Under the pieces are notes generated by a model that worked only from the letters and a program-made list of their open reading frames with translations, was not told the origin of the DNA and made no database searches. 64,000 bases of DNA, taken from contig NZ_BMCM01000001.1 in assembly GCF_014635185.1 (NCBI RefSeq), forward strand, positions 434,001 through 498,000. The letters run 5' to 3'. Positions 40,837-46,818 of the stretch are shown in pieces (within the stretch, counting starts at the first letter, position 1; every line of letters starts with the position of its first letter). A program made the translations under genes and the position numbers. The DNA comes from Microbacterium murale (lineage in GTDB: Bacteria; Actinomycetota; Actinomycetes; Actinomycetales; Microbacteriaceae).

Positions 40837-42159
40837 GTGACCGCGCGCCAGACCCTCAATCGAGAGATCCTGCGCCTCGCCGTCCCCGCTTTCGGCGCGC
40901 TGGTCGCGGAGCCGGCGTTCCTCATGGTGGATGCTGCGCTCGTCGGCCACCTCGGCGTCACGCCGCTCGCCGGCCTCGGCATCGCGAGTGCGGTGCTGCA
41001 GACGATCGTCGGGCTCATGATCTTCCTCGCCTATTCGACGACGCCGGCGGTCGCTCGGCGATTCGGCGCCGGCGACAAGCAGGATGCAGTGAGCGTCGGG
41101 ATCGACGGCATGTGGCTGGCGCTGGGCCTCGGTGCAGTGCTCGCAGTCGCGGGCGCGCTCTCCTCACCGTGGCTGGTCTCGCTGTTCGGCGCATCCGATG
41201 AGGTGGCCGAGCAGGCAGACACCTACTTGGCCATCTCGATGTGGGGCCTGCCAGCCATGCTCATCGTTTTCGCCGCCACCGGCCTGCTGCGCGGAATGCA
41301 GGACACCATGACCCCGCTGTGGATAGCGGGGGCCGGATTCGGCGCGAATGCACTGCTGAACTGGCTGTTCATCTACGGCTTCGGCTGGGGTATCGCCGGC
41401 TCAGCAGCCGGCACGATCGTCGCGCAATGGAGCATGGTCGCCGCCTACGTGGTCATCATCGGCCGCCTTGCCCGTCGGCACTCGGCATCGGTCCGTCCTC
41501 AGCGCGACGGCGTCCGCGGCTCTGCGCGGTCAGGCGGCTGGCTGTTCCTGCGCACCGTGAGCCTGCGCGTCGCCCTGCTCGTCACGGTCGGCATCGCCAC
41601 GGGCATCGGCACCACCGAGCTCGCCGGATGGCAGGTGGTCTTCACGATCTTCTCGGCCGCGGCCTTCGCGCTCGATGCACTCGCGATCGCCGCGCAGGCG
41701 TTGATCGGCAAGGGCCTCGGCGCCGGTGATATCCCCGGTGTTCGACGGGTGCTCGCCCGTACGGTCGCCTGGGGCGCGTGGTTCGGAGTGATCGTCGGCG
41801 GTCTGATCGCCGCGCTGTCTGGCGTGATCGGGCTCGCCTTCACCGGCGACCCCGCCGTCGCGGCCCTCATCCAGCCCGCCCTCATCGTGCTCGCCGTGGC
41901 GCAGCCGATCGCAGGGATCGTGTTCGTGCTCGACGGTGTGCTGATGGGATCAGGTGACGTGCGATACCTGGCGATCGCCGGCGGACTCAACCTCGTGCCG
42001 TTCCTGCCCGCGCTGTGGATCATCACGCTCGTCGGCGTCGACGGCACGGCCGGGGTGACCTGGTTGGCGGTGACCTTCTTCGGCGTGTACATGCTCGCCC
42101 GCTTCGCGACACTCGGCTGGCGGGTCAAGACCGGTGGATGGCTGAGCGCGTCGGTGTGA
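40837..42159 (+). CDS. MATE-family efflux transporter (DinF-like)
   Basis: 440 residues with about 12 membrane helices in two pseudo-symmetric halves. Family landmarks: LAVPAFGALVAEPAFLMVDAALVGHLG near the N-terminus, GLLRGMQDTMTPLWIAGAG at helix 5 and FVLDGVLMGSGDVRYLAIAGGLNLV in the second half. Exports drugs or metabolites by H+ or Na+ antiport; substrate unknown. GTG start 6 nt after TAGGCT, a clear leaderless arrangement. Confidence 0.92.
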   Translation: MTARQTLNREILRLAVPAFGALVAEPAFLMVDAALVGHLGVTPLAGLGIASAVLQTIVGLMIFLAYSTTPAVARRFGAGDKQDAVSVGIDGMWLALGLGAVLAVAGALSSPWLVSLFGASDEVAEQADTYLAISMWGLPAMLIVFAATGLLRGMQDTMTPLWIAGAGFGANALLNWLFIYGFGWGIAGSAAGTIVAQWSMVAAYVVIIGRLARRHSASVRPQRDGVRGSARSGGWLFLRTVSLRVALLVTVGIATGIGTTELAGWQVVFTIFSAAAFALDALAIAAQALIGKGLGAGDIPGVRRVLARTVAWGAWFGVIVGGLIAALSGVIGLAFTGDPAVAALIQPALIVLAVAQPIAGIVFVLDGVLMGSGDVRYLAIAGGLNLVPFLPALWIITLVGVDGTAGVTWLAVTFFGVYMLARFATLGWRVKTGGWLSASV

Positions 42160-42189
42160 CACACACACCCGGTGCGTCAAGATGTCGGT

Positions 42190-43083
42190 ATGCCCATGGC
42201 CTGGCCCGGCGACAGCGCGACAGTCGTGCGCTGGATACGATCCACTCTCGAACGCGCCCGCGACTCGGGCGAGATCGGCCTGAGAGGGCTTGACGACATC
42301 GAAGTAACGGCCGCACTGTCCGGATACGATCTCGAGCACCTCACCATGGATGCCACCGGCTCGAAGCTCACGCTCGGCTGGAACGCGCCGCCGATACCAA
42401 CCGACCCCGTCACGAACGCTCCCGTCGCCGAAGACACCCGCGAGCCGGAGATCATCTCCCGCGAGCACGGCCTCGTGAAGAGCTTCCGCTTCTCCGCCCG
42501 GCCGATGCGTATCGAGCGCAGCCCGCTCAACATCGAAGTGCAGGCGTTCGACATGCCGATCGTCTGGCTGACCGCCGCCGAGCCCGCCAAACCAGGTGTC
42601 CCCGAGAGCGCCCACACGATCGCCCCCGATGATGATCTCGGCGACATGCGCGGCACCTTCCACACCTCCATCGCCACGAAGAACCTGGTTCCGCTGATCA
42701 CCTCCGTCGCACGGCCGATGCTGCGCGAAGGCGGCATCCACCTCGGCCGGTTGCGCGTCGAGGTCGTGCAGGACGGCGGCGACGGCATCCGCATTACGGC
42801 ATACGCCGGTGTGCGCTGGAGACTGCTCATGGCGTCGGCGCGAGGCGAGGCGCGGATCGCAGTGACGAAGGATGCTGTCATCACGGTCCGCGACCTCACG
42901 CTCGGCAGTCGCAACCTGTTCGTGAAAGCCGCTCTGTTGTTCGCCCGAAAGCACGTGCGCGCGATCGTCGGCCGGTCGATCGACCTCAACGAGTCGCTCG
43001 CCGCCGACGGCACAAACCTGCGTCTTCACGATGTGCGCGTCGCCACCGGCGAACAGCTCAGCGTCGAGGGGCGATTCGGCTGA
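42190..43083 (+). CDS. DUF2993 (LmeA-like) lipid-binding protein
   Basis: 297 residues. The pattern of long amphipathic strands (IEVQAFDMPIVWLTA, MRGTFHTSIATKNLVPLITSVARPMLREGGIHL, LRVEVVQDGGDGIRITAYAGVRW, DAVITVRDLTLGSRN) fits DUF2993, the family of mycobacterial LmeA, which binds phospholipids and acts in lipomannan maturation. No signal peptide is visible, unlike secreted LmeA. ATG at 42190 is chosen because CAAGAT is 6 nt ahead. Its 3' end overlaps the convergent membrane-protein gene by 26 bp. Confidence 0.7.
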   Translation: MPMAWPGDSATVVRWIRSTLERARDSGEIGLRGLDDIEVTAALSGYDLEHLTMDATGSKLTLGWNAPPIPTDPVTNAPVAEDTREPEIISREHGLVKSFRFSARPMRIERSPLNIEVQAFDMPIVWLTAAEPAKPGVPESAHTIAPDDDLGDMRGTFHTSIATKNLVPLITSVARPMLREGGIHLGRLRVEVVQDGGDGIRITAYAGVRWRLLMASARGEARIAVTKDAVITVRDLTLGSRNLFVKAALLFARKHVRAIVGRSIDLNESLAADGTNLRLHDVRVATGEQLSVEGRFG

Positions 43084-44200
43084 GCGGCCCAGGCTCCCGC
43101 GGGACGACAGGAGCAGCGTCCTCGCGGCGAGCCATGGCGTAGCCCCACGTCGCGAGCGCGAGCAGTGGGCCCCACAGCCAGAACGGGAACGCGAACACGA
43201 ACTCGAGGACCTGTCCGATGCTTCCATCGCTCAGTGTGCCCTCCATCACCGACAGCATCATGTCGACGCCGCCGACGGTGAACAGCGCCGCGACGATGGA
43301 TGCCGGCACCACGGCGAGGGCGACCGGCACCGGGCGCCCGCCCAGACCTGCCATCCATCGCGGGAACCGCCGGCCCCACGGCAGAATCAGCCCGAGTGTC
43401 AGCAGCCCGCCCGTCAGCATCGCGGCGCCGAGGCTCAGCCCGGTGAACAGCGTCCCTGGGGCCGCGGCGAGATCGGCGCTGCTCGGCGCGAGCAAAGGCC
43501 AGGGCGTCAGCCAGGATGCCCGAGCGATCGTGTACGGCAGTGCGCAGCATGCGGCCGCGACGGTGATCGCGGTCCGGTGACGCAGCACCCAGGTGGCGAG
43601 GCGGCCGCGGTGTGCGCTTCGCCCGATCACCAGGCCGGCGATGAGGCCGACGGACGCGACCAGATACGCGCCGGCGTACAGCACACCCGGAAGCTGCTCG
43701 ACGAATGCCGGGCCGAACCGGCTTGCGACGTCCGCGGCGTTCAGGCCGACGATCGCCCAGGTCGCGATGGCGGCGACCGCAGCGATCGCGACGACACCCC
43801 ACCACGGATGCCGCCGCACGAGCAGCACGGTCATCACGACGACGCCGAGGATCACGACCACCGCGAAGGAGTACCCGGCGATGGGGATCAGCCCGCCAGG
43901 GGTCAGCAGAATCATGGCGACGGACACGACGACGGTCGCAGCGCGGAGGAGCGCAGTTGTACGACCGGCGCGACCTGCGGCGTACCCGAGCAGTCCGACG
44001 GCGATGCCCGCGAGACCGACAGCGAGGCTGAGCGCCGCGTCGACCGCATCCGGCAGCACGCGCCCGGCTAGCCCCGGAGCGACCTCCTCCATCCAGCCGA
44101 GCGATCCGGGGGCGATGAGGCGGATGCCGCCGACGAAGGCCAGCACGGCAGAGCAGAGCACGACGACGAACGTCAAGAGGGAGCGGATACGTGAGTTCAT
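43058..44200 (-). CDS. polytopic membrane protein, probable target of the adjacent two-component system
   Basis: 380 residues with roughly ten hydrophobic segments and short charged loops; family not recognised. The ATG at 44200 is 6 nt after TACCGT with no Shine-Dalgarno, so transcription starts at or next to the start codon. A palindrome identical in its arms to one upstream of the histidine kinase gene lies centred 65 bp upstream, a class I activator position. It directly follows the response regulator in the same orientation. Together this suggests it is the effector that the kinase/regulator pair switches on. Confidence 0.75.
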   Translation of the reverse strand: MNSRIRSLLTFVVVLCSAVLAFVGGIRLIAPGSLGWMEEVAPGLAGRVLPDAVDAALSLAVGLAGIAVGLLGYAAGRAGRTTALLRAATVVVSVAMILLTPGGLIPIAGYSFAVVVILGVVVMTVLLVRRHPWWGVVAIAAVAAIATWAIVGLNAADVASRFGPAFVEQLPGVLYAGAYLVASVGLIAGLVIGRSAHRGRLATWVLRHRTAITVAAACCALPYTIARASWLTPWPLLAPSSADLAAAPGTLFTGLSLGAAMLTGGLLTLGLILPWGRRFPRWMAGLGGRPVPVALAVVPASIVAALFTVGGVDMMLSVMEGTLSDGSIGQVLEFVFAFPFWLWGPLLALATWGYAMARREDAAPVVPREPGPLSRIAPRR

Positions 44201-44257
44201 GACTTCACGGTACGAACGCGGCGCCGTCACTGGCATCGCCTGCTGCGGTGGTCTTGC

Positions 44258-44273
44258 TCACCCGTGCGGGTGA
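44258..44273 (-). promoter_or_regulatory. TCACCC-N4-GGGTGA palindrome upstream of the membrane protein gene
   Basis: 16-bp dyad with spacer GTGC, extended by one base pair on each side (CTCACCC/GGGTGAG). Centred about -65 relative to the membrane-protein start. The same arms recur at 46182-46197 upstream of the kinase gene. Candidate binding site of the LuxR-type response regulator; termination after that gene is the alternative. Confidence 0.65.
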
Positions 44274-44287
44274 GTTCGGTTCGGCTC

Positions 44288-44944
44288 TCAGCCGCGCGGG
44301 CGCAGCACGCCGTGCTCGTACGCCCAGATGACCACGTGGATGCGGTCGGGCAGACCGAGCTTCGAGAGCACCGCCTTCACGTGCGTCTTCACCGTGTTCT
44401 CCGAGAGGAACAACCTGCGGGCGATGTCATCGTTGGCGACTCCGGTCGCCAGCAGTCGCGCGATCTCCTGCTCTCGTGGGCTGAGGACGGCCAATGCGTC
44501 TGTCGCATCCGTCGCCGGCGCACCCTCCCGTACGAACCCGAGGAGCGCCCGAGTCGCACTCGACGACATCACTGCCTCACCTGCGGCGACCGCGACGACG
44601 GCGTCTGCGAGCGCCTCGGGCGTCGCATCCTTCGTGAGGAAGCCGCTGGCTCCCTCACGCACCGCGGCGTACACGTACTCGTCGAGATCGAACGTGGTGA
44701 GCACCAGAACGCGAAGGCGTGGGCGCAGCCGCAGCACCTCCCTGGTCGCCGCGATGCCGTCTGTTCCCGGCATCCGGATGTCCATCAGTACGACGTCGAC
44801 GGGGTGCGCACGGAGGTACTCGATCGCGGCGTCACCCGAGTCGACGGATGCCGTGACCTCCAGCCGCTGGTCGCGCGCGAGTAGCGCGGCGATGGCTTCG
44901 CGGAACAGCGCCTGGTCATCGGCGATCAGCACTCGAACGCTCAT
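44288..44944 (-). CDS. two-component response regulator, NarL/LuxR type
   Basis: 218 residues. Receiver domain with D9/D10 and phospho-acceptor D55 (VDVVLMDIRMPG), Thr in VLVLTTFD and Lys in GFLTKD; then a LuxR-type helix-turn-helix (LSPREQEIARLLATGVANDDIARRLFLSENTVKTHVKAVLSKLGLPDR). Transcriptional regulator activated by the kinase encoded upstream; the start overlaps the kinase stop as ATGA. Sequence-specific palindromes near its operon and the next gene suggest its DNA target. Confidence 0.95.
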   Translation of the reverse strand: MSVRVLIADDQALFREAIAALLARDQRLEVTASVDSGDAAIEYLRAHPVDVVLMDIRMPGTDGIAATREVLRLRPRLRVLVLTTFDLDEYVYAAVREGASGFLTKDATPEALADAVVAVAAGEAVMSSSATRALLGFVREGAPATDATDALAVLSPREQEIARLLATGVANDDIARRLFLSENTVKTHVKAVLSKLGLPDRIHVVIWAYEHGVLRPRG

Positions 44945-46146
44945 TCGACTCCTCCATCCGCGGCATCCGCATACGGCAATTCGATATGCACTCGCCATCC
45001 CCCCGAAGGCTCGAGGCCTGCGCTGAGGCTGCCCCGTGCGAGGCGGACACGCTCGGCCATTCCGATGAGGCCGAGGCCGCTCCCGGGGCTCGCCGGGCCG
45101 GGGCCACCGCCGCCGTCATCGTCGATCGTCGCGATGACGTGATCCGCCGCCCATTCGAGCCGCACGACGATCCGCCGTGGCGCCGCAGTATGCCTGACCG
45201 CATTGGTGAGCGCCTCGCGCACAGCATGGTGCACGGCGATCAGCGCATCCGATCCGAGCCTGTGCGGTGTGCCTGTCTCCTCGAACTGCACATCGGTCTC
45301 GGAGCTGCGCACGGACTCGACCAGGGCGCCGATCGCGTCGATGCCGGGCGTTGGCTCTCTCGGCGCATCGGCATCCGCGGCGATCGCACCTCGCATCGCG
45401 CGCAGTGCCTCCCGCCCGGTGTCGGAGACGATGTGCAGCGCGCGAGTACCGGCATCCGGATCGTCGCGGATGAGGGCGCGTGCGACATCCGCCTGCGCGA
45501 TCATCACGGTCATGGAGTGCGCGACGACGTCGTGCAGGTCGCGGTTGATCCGCATCCGCTCGGCCACGATCGCCTCGCGGACGCGAGTGCGTTGGCGCTC
45601 CTCGGCGTACTGACCGCGCTGTCGCTGCAACAGACCGATCGCCCACGCGGCGGCGATCATCGCGGCGAGCCCGACGAAGAGCCCGATCCGGATGCCGTCA
45701 GGCATGGCCGACGCCGGCGTCCAGGCGATCACGGCCGCACCGAGCACTCCGATGCCGAGGGCTGCGAGACCGAGGCGAAGCGTGCGGAGGGCGGCGACCT
45801 CGCCGACGCAGAGAAGGTAGGCGAAGGATGACGGGAACAGCGCGGCCGGTGCTCCGGCGACGCCCTCGCCTCCCGGCAGCAGCGCGAGCGCGAACATCGC
45901 GAGGCTGGCGGCGGCGAACGCGATGACGGGGAATCGCACCGAGACCAGGGAGGCGGCATGCACGAGCGTGAAGAGTGCCGTGATCACGGCGGCGGCTGCG
46001 GGATCGGGCACTGCCTGCGCTTGAACGATCGCGATCAGGCTGGCCGGCAGCAGCAGCACCGTCATGGCGATCGCGAGAATCACATCGGGGCGGTTGAGTA
46101 CACGCCAGCCGTCAGAAGTGGAGATCTTCCTCACGGCGCCGGACAC
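44941..46146 (-). CDS. sensor histidine kinase, NarL-partner (HisKA_3) type
   Basis: 401 residues. The N-terminal ~175 residues hold five or six membrane helices with little extracellular sequence, so it probably senses something in or at the membrane. The dimerisation/phosphotransfer helix has H205 in INRDLHDVVAHSMTVM; the HATPase domain shows N-box HHAVREALTNAVRHT and G boxes DDDGGGGPG and GSGLGLIGMAERV. GTG start. First gene of the kinase-regulator operon, with the TCACCC-N4-GGGTGA palindrome centred about 43 bp upstream. Confidence 0.94.
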   Translation of the reverse strand: MSGAVRKISTSDGWRVLNRPDVILAIAMTVLLLPASLIAIVQAQAVPDPAAAAVITALFTLVHAASLVSVRFPVIAFAAASLAMFALALLPGGEGVAGAPAALFPSSFAYLLCVGEVAALRTLRLGLAALGIGVLGAAVIAWTPASAMPDGIRIGLFVGLAAMIAAAWAIGLLQRQRGQYAEERQRTRVREAIVAERMRINRDLHDVVAHSMTVMIAQADVARALIRDDPDAGTRALHIVSDTGREALRAMRGAIAADADAPREPTPGIDAIGALVESVRSSETDVQFEETGTPHRLGSDALIAVHHAVREALTNAVRHTAAPRRIVVRLEWAADHVIATIDDDGGGGPGPASPGSGLGLIGMAERVRLARGSLSAGLEPSGGWRVHIELPYADAADGGVE

Positions 46147-46181
46147 GGCCCCATGCTCTCACGGGCGAGTTCGGCGGCGGA

Positions 46182-46197
46182 TCACCCGCGAGGGTGA
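46182..46197 (-). promoter_or_regulatory. TCACCC-N4-GGGTGA palindrome upstream of the kinase gene
   Basis: Same arms as the site at 44258-44273, spacer GCGA. It sits between the TrmH-like stop and the kinase GTG, centred near -43 if transcription starts at the GTG: the classic position for an activator touching the -35 region. Candidate autoregulatory site. Confidence 0.65.
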
Positions 46198-46200
46198 ACC

Positions 46201-46818
46201 TCAGCTCGCGTACCGGCGGCACCACTCGTACATGATCACCGCGCCGGCAGCACTCGCATTGATCGAACGCGTCGAGCCGTACTGGGTGATCTCGATGTGT
46301 CCGGATGCCGCGGCGATCGCCTCTTCGGTCAGCCCAGGTCCCTCCTGACCGAACAGCAGCACGCAGCGCTCCGGAAGGTCTGCCTTGTCGACGGGCACGG
46401 CCCCCTCCACGTTGTCGACCGCGATGATGGGGATGCCCTCGGCTGCCGCCCAGGTTACGAACGAGGCGACGTCCTCGTGGTGGACGACGTGCTGATAGCG
46501 GTCGGTGACCATCGCGCCGCGCTTGTTCCAGCGGCGGCGGCCGATGATGTGCACGGTGTCGGCGAGGAAGGCATTCGCGCTGCGCACGATCGAGCCGATG
46601 TTCATGTCGTGCTGCCAGTTCTCGATCGCGACGTGGAACGGATGCCGGTGCGTATCGAGGTCGGCGACGATCGCCTCCATGCGCCAGTACCGGTAGCGAT
46701 CGATGACGTTGCGGGTGTCACCGTTCTCCAGCAGTTCGGGGTCGTACTGCTCCCCCACCGGCCACTCGCCTTCCCAGGGTCCGAGTCCGTGGGTGGTGCG
46801 CTCAGGGGTGTCGGTCAC
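46201..46818 (-). CDS. TrmH/SpoU-family RNA 2'-O-methyltransferase
   Basis: 205 residues of the SPOUT superfamily. The three SpoU motifs are visible: HDMNIGSIVRSANAF (motif 1 with Asn and Arg), CVLLFGQEGPGLT (motif 2) and IEITQYGSTRSINASAAGAVIMYE (motif 3, knot). Methylates ribose in tRNA or rRNA using SAM; the target cannot be deduced. GTG start, 6 nt after TACGCT, leaderless. Divergent from the MntR-like gene. Confidence 0.9.
   Translation of the reverse strand: MTDTPERTTHGLGPWEGEWPVGEQYDPELLENGDTRNVIDRYRYWRMEAIVADLDTHRHPFHVAIENWQHDMNIGSIVRSANAFLADTVHIIGRRRWNKRGAMVTDRYQHVVHHEDVASFVTWAAAEGIPIIAVDNVEGAVPVDKADLPERCVLLFGQEGPGLTEEAIAAASGHIEITQYGSTRSINASAAGAVIMYEWCRRYAS

Follow-up and report, generated by a model that had tools for sequence, protein, structure and literature searches.

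LiaFSR/VraTSR systems, which respond to envelope stress in the Firmicutes, combine a membrane-embedded kinase, a NarL-type regulator and a membrane protein as third member, and are autoregulated. The two-component system analysed here is encoded in a 64 kb stretch of DNA, the whole of which is called the window below. It resembles LiaFSR/VraTSR in its general plan, comprising a histidine kinase, a NarL-type response regulator and a polytopic membrane protein encoded after the regulator gene (abbreviated MP), and the closest solved regulator chain (5hev) is named VraR. Gene order and operator differ, however, and the MP possesses neither a detectable LiaF domain nor any other shared Pfam domain. 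Since nothing marks the MP as a LiaF protein, we do not file the system under LiaFSR/VraTSR.

A second point of comparison is BldM of Streptomyces. This NarL/FixJ-type protein has been footprinted on its Group I operators, which are 16-bp palindromes of the form TCACcCgnncGgGTGA, and is described as an orphan global developmental regulator, thought to be independent of phosphorylation control (PMC4125116). The present locus shares with BldM both the 16-bp motif, here TCACCC-N4-GGGTGA, and the type of regulator. Compared with this operator, the palindrome at 44258-44273 fits at all stated positions, while that at 46182-46197 fits at the 12 half-site positions and at one of the two inner g/c positions. 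The regulator itself is not an orphan, as its gene overlaps a kinase gene by 4 bases. It further differs from BldM in that sites with the promoter layout described below occur at its own operon, at the MP gene and at one gene for a small membrane protein.

MacRS of Streptomyces coelicolor has multiple direct targets, membrane-protein genes among them (PMC9739842). To that extent it is a comparable actinobacterial two-component system with membrane-protein targets, but its targets are multiple. We found no description of the present module or of the MP family in the accessible parts of the open-licence literature on BldM, LiaF/VraT, and Microbacterium and actinobacterial two-component systems. 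Our analysis supplies a predicted operator, a promoter layout and a small predicted regulon for this two-component system and MP family.

Gene organisation of the locus

Four genes follow each other on the minus strand in the order SpoU methylase (46201-46818), histidine kinase (44941-46146), NarL/LuxR-type response regulator (44288-44944) and MP (43058-44200). The kinase has HisKA_3 and HATPase_c domains, hydrophobic segments across residues 16-175 and no obvious external domain, in which it presumably resembles intramembrane-sensing kinases. The regulator consists of a receiver and a GerE helix-turn-helix domain. All relevant families (PF00072, PF00196, PF07730, PF02518) scored above the Pfam cut-off, as expected for a NarL/FixJ (LuxR-type) system. 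Residues D9, D10, D55, T83 and K105 of the regulator and H205 of the kinase, the latter within NRDLHD, are what we take to be the canonical phosphorylation residues. VraR (5hev), NarL and DevR are the closest regulators of solved structure, and the nearest relatives by regulator sequence are from Microbacterium. The kinase gene also adjoins the regulator gene in the remaining tandem and divergent loci considered below.

Conserved palindromes and promoter layout

The palindrome TCACCC-N4-GGGTGA, which has no strand of its own, occurs in two exact copies, both correctly located in the initial annotation, and its statement that the 64 kb window holds no further exact copy was borne out. The copy at 46182-46197 is the predicted operator of the kinase-regulator operon, its centre (46189.5) lying 43.5 nt from the GTG at 46146. 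The copy at 44258-44273 is the strong upstream predicted operator of the MP gene, with its centre (44265.5) 65.5 nt from the ATG at 44200.

The genome scan proposed in the initial annotation retrieved 4 exact copies from the host genome (3.9 Mb) and none of the same pattern read backwards; when one mismatch was allowed, the counts were 35 and 1. Across the genus, host included, there are 72 exact copies in 59 genomes, against 3 for the backwards control. We inspected 40 distinct sites out of the 68 exact ones outside the host genome (41 loci, as one site was represented twice), and 34 of the 41 loci were flagged as lying inside a long open frame, a flag that overcalls, as two true promoters also received it. 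The bare palindrome is not rare. What exceeds chance is that it recurs, with constant spacing, ahead of the orthologous kinase and MP genes.

For the comparison of orthologous loci, the best 80 of 390 loci from a scan with the MP alignment were kept, which together with 4 earlier loci and the window gave 85 examined loci. Among these, 36 in which the genes follow each other as kinase-regulator-MP and regulator identity is 58% or more form a tandem class. Conservation of the palindromes upstream of orthologous gene pairs, on which the initial annotation had made its proposal depend, is evident in this class. Before the MP gene the best copy is exact in 18 loci, has one mismatch in 13 and two in 5; before the kinase gene, in the 33 loci with enough sequence, 0, 1, 2 or 3 mismatches were found in 12, 17, 3 and 1. 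At most one mismatch is thus seen at 31/36 MP and 29/33 kinase promoters, the weaker cases (5/36 and 4/33) carrying 2 or 3. In a non-redundant set of 28 loci (<90% regulator identity) the corresponding figures are 24/28 and 22/25. Random windows of the same length reach this level of agreement in a fraction of just 0.0011-0.0012, and the backwards pattern has 4 or more mismatches at every tandem locus.

The distance to the downstream gene is also conserved. Measured from the palindrome centre, there is an in-frame start codon of the kinase gene at 42.5-44.5 nt in 33/33 loci and an in-frame ATG of the MP gene at 63.5-67.5 nt in 36/36. The positions near -43 and -65, which had been proposed as those of an activator, are therefore kept throughout. 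That both genes look leaderless, as also proposed, gains support from a -10-like hexamer conserved 6-7 nt upstream of the start codon; at the MP gene it frequently reads TAGCGT or TACCGT, and at the kinase gene it is GAGCAT-like. The putative leaderless promoters of the window have, on the minus strand, TACCGT (44207-44212) 6 nt before the MP ATG and GAGCAT (46153-46158) 6 nt before the kinase GTG. A promoter scan returned no sigma-70 consensus promoter, which carries little weight as merely 0.1 would be expected by chance.

One feature absent from the initial annotation is a weaker second palindrome in the MP promoter, CCACCG-N4-AGGCGA (44236-44251, minus strand, 4 mismatches), located 22 bp downstream of the strong site. 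It is centred near -43 of the MP gene, which is the position of the single site in the kinase promoter. A second site with up to 4 mismatches is present at an offset of 21-23 in 26/28 non-redundant MP promoters but in 0/28 at offsets 24-41, and shuffled controls gave a mean of 0.51 and a maximum of 3.

Divergent and unlinked loci

In 10 loci of the Agromyces type, the kinase and MP genes are divergent and a single palindrome lies between them, exact in 8, with one mismatch in L066 and with two in L061. Where this palindrome has no more than one mismatch (9 loci), it is flanked on either side by a hexamer of the form xAxxxT that ends 36-37 nt away from the centre, just as in the kinase promoters of the tandem class. 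The start codons of the divergent loci are off the fixed distances (75-120 nt for the MP), and it is the -10-like hexamers alone that keep their place.

In more distant actinobacteria the palindrome reads TCCCCC-N4-GGGGGA. Among 31 loci where the regulator is less than 50% identical or where none is nearby, the degenerate form TCMCCC-N4-GGGKGA was found upstream of the MP gene as an exact copy in 26, and all 31 have a copy if one mismatch is allowed, for random expectations of 0.0006 (exact) and 0.0045 (one mismatch allowed).

We searched 6 genomes that have no regulator at the MP locus, 5 of these loci having full flanks, and in 3 of the 5 full-flank genomes the palindrome precedes an unlinked kinase gene. 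Krasilnikoviella and Isoptericola each have an exact TCCCCC palindrome centred 43.5 nt before the ATG of the unlinked kinase, and the best regulator match lies about 2 kb beyond the kinase, with other sequence between (L272, L273). This separation of kinase and regulator indicates that the module can be dispersed. In Microlunatus, a one-mismatch copy is found 42.5 nt before the ATG of the unlinked kinase. Pseudactinotalea carries a complete kinase-regulator-MP set elsewhere in its genome (L274). In two genomes (G669, G671) there was no matching kinase promoter near the best regulator match, and the remaining exact sites examined did not adjoin a kinase gene either.

Further candidate targets

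A strict test of the promoter layout was applied to the 35 near-matches (at most one mismatch) in the host genome, and 4 passed: the kinase, the MP, L003 and L150. The last was set aside because a gene-like frame on the opposite strand encloses it. L003 (L003:1501-2043; G000:C1:753488-754030), another target candidate not contained in the initial annotation, is a palindrome preceding the gene for a 156-aa membrane protein with a sub-threshold match to DUF6463. An exact site near -64 and one with 3 mismatches near -42 repeat the two-site layout of the MP promoter. Homologues of the protein occur in 3/98 genomes, host included. The Occultella homologue (L138) is 43% identical and its gene is preceded by two sites spaced by 22 bp, which differ from the degenerate form at 1 and 2 positions, the ATG being 64.5 nt from the first centre; the same assembly also encodes an MP (L101). 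A third, weak homologue (L139) has no such sites. Judged from these sequences, the promoter of the DUF6463-like small membrane protein probably belongs to the circuit in the host genome. The gene stands beside one for an XRE-type regulator and beside putative clpP-like genes.

Elsewhere in the genus, 4/40 distinct exact sites passed the same test, three of them at orthologous operons (L110, L136/L242, L237) and the fourth at L232. In this last case (L232:433-1511, genome G106), the palindrome is exact and its centre lies 63.5 nt upstream of the GTG that starts an Ion_trans channel gene. A GACCGT hexamer precedes this start and a second site is absent; G106 also carries the kinase-regulator-MP operon. 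Another exact TCACCC-N4-GGGTGA (L119:810-2938, genome G326) accompanies a different NarL-type two-component system whose regulator is 48% identical; it lies between the regulator gene and an Acyl_transf_3 membrane protein gene, with its centre about 89 nt before the ATG.

Proposed circuit and alternative explanations

The reading we favour, and which is very probably correct as far as sequence comparison can tell, is that the NarL-type two-component system is autoregulated and activates both its own operon and the 10-helix MP via the two palindromes. The operators would belong to the response regulator encoded between them. Upon stimulation of the membrane-embedded kinase, a phosphorylated regulator dimer would bind TCACCC-N4-GGGTGA. 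At the kinase promoter, one dimer at -43.5 may replace a -35 element, and at the MP promoter the strong site at -65.5 and the weak site near -43 could hold two dimers, two helical turns apart. Activation of both leaderless promoters would then result in positive autoregulation and in induction of the MP, which may act as a dedicated output or as a feedback partner. The initial annotation had likewise connected regulator, palindromes and MP; conservation and fixed geometry uphold this connection, whereas for the identity of the binder, its phosphorylation, the activation and the role of the MP as effector we still rely on inference.

More tentatively, the data may reflect an as yet undescribed, actinobacteria-wide three-part sensory module, in which an intramembrane-type kinase acts together with a NarL-type regulator that has a dedicated operator, and in which 10-helix MPs of a novel family would serve as main transcriptional output as well as sensor or feedback subunit. 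Such a circuit would be nearly closed, small or channel-like membrane proteins being occasional extra targets. This wider reading is possible, with the balance somewhat against it.

The same regulator might bind the palindromes but mainly repress, or switch between repression and activation, in which case its release from the sites would induce the operon and the MP. Repression of the own operon occurs with some response regulators, and the sign of regulation is not provable from geometry alone. The sites are nevertheless situated upstream of the -10 region, at about -43 and -65, and not over it, so that we consider predominant repression unlikely.

It is also quite unlikely that the palindrome is read by some other, global regulator, such as an orphan NarL-type protein resembling BldM, which would control both the system and the MP from outside. 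The equality of the motif with the BldM Group I consensus TCACcCgnncGgGTGA would be accounted for in this way, the host genome does have other NarL-type regulators (30 matches to the present one, partly not full-length), and the copies after the regulator of another two-component system (L119) and before the ion-channel gene in G106 would fit a broader regulon. Against a global regulator stand the few sites with the promoter layout, which in the host amount to 4/35 (two at the operon, L003, and L150 inside its gene-like frame) and in the rest of the genus to 4/40 (the three at orthologous operons, and L232). The motif also varies with the clade of the adjacent regulator. We thus prefer control by the adjacent regulator.

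That the palindromes are RNA hairpins or terminators is extremely unlikely. They do lie 3 and 14 bases past the ends of the upstream genes, and their 6-7-bp stems fold as RNA, but the fold z-scores are just -1.6 and -0.45, no T-run follows and no terminator-like site was detected within 43900-46500. The initial annotation had named frequent occurrence at gene 3' ends as evidence against its proposal; the palindromes do not behave in this manner, as they are found between two 5' ends in the Agromyces-type loci and keep a fixed distance to the downstream start codon, while the spacing to the end of the regulator match ranges from 5 to 227 nt. Chance repetition of a GC-rich palindrome, for which the exact copies inside coding sequence across the genus might speak (72 in 59 genomes, most of the 41 loci being flagged), is refuted by its recurrence at fixed distance before orthologous genes and has a practically negligible probability.

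Regulator helix and operator type

The recognition helix of the regulator was compared with the operator in 72 loci with a full regulator, of which 47 have a TCACCC-type palindrome, 20 a TCCCCC-type palindrome and 5 are mixed. Position 183 is N in 44/47 TCACCC-type loci and E in 20/20 of the TCCCCC type; in the mixed loci it is E in 4/5 and N in 1/5. The exceptions among the TCACCC-type loci are L079 and L100 (both E) and L067 (S, with the regulator about 3 kb off). The palindrome of L079 (L079:5215-5230, Ornithinicoccus) is a perfect TCACCC copy despite the E183 helix. The pairing of N183/E183 with TCACCC/TCCCCC provides a concrete, though phylogenetically confounded, hypothesis for DNA recognition by NarL-type regulators; it is merely suggestive, because the regulator tree consists mostly of one deep split, with 3 changes between operator types when the mixed loci are left out.

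The membrane protein family

The MP (380 aa) has about 10 membrane helices by our own count from hydropathy and the structural model. The model is almost all helical, with a mean pLDDT of 92 and a pTM of 0.88, and no solved structure matched it in a way that could be relied on. The MP has no Pfam or NCBIfam family, and among 68 aligned relatives no Pfam family was common to more than one member. The family is not confined to the Microbacteriaceae, as its profile matches 55/296 genomes drawn from the class.

Of the 69 MP loci flanked by 4.5 kb or more of sequence, 64 have a NarL-type regulator gene, which in 63 lies within 2.6 kb. The role of the MP becomes directly testable through this association. 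A crude clustering of the neighbouring genes revealed no other family that is as widespread beside the MP. In the window, the MP gene is convergent with a plus-strand gene (42172-43083) for a 303-aa protein without Pfam match, which is itself preceded by a MATE transporter gene (40837-42159), and homologues of both the transporter and the 303-aa protein also adjoin the MP gene in L017.
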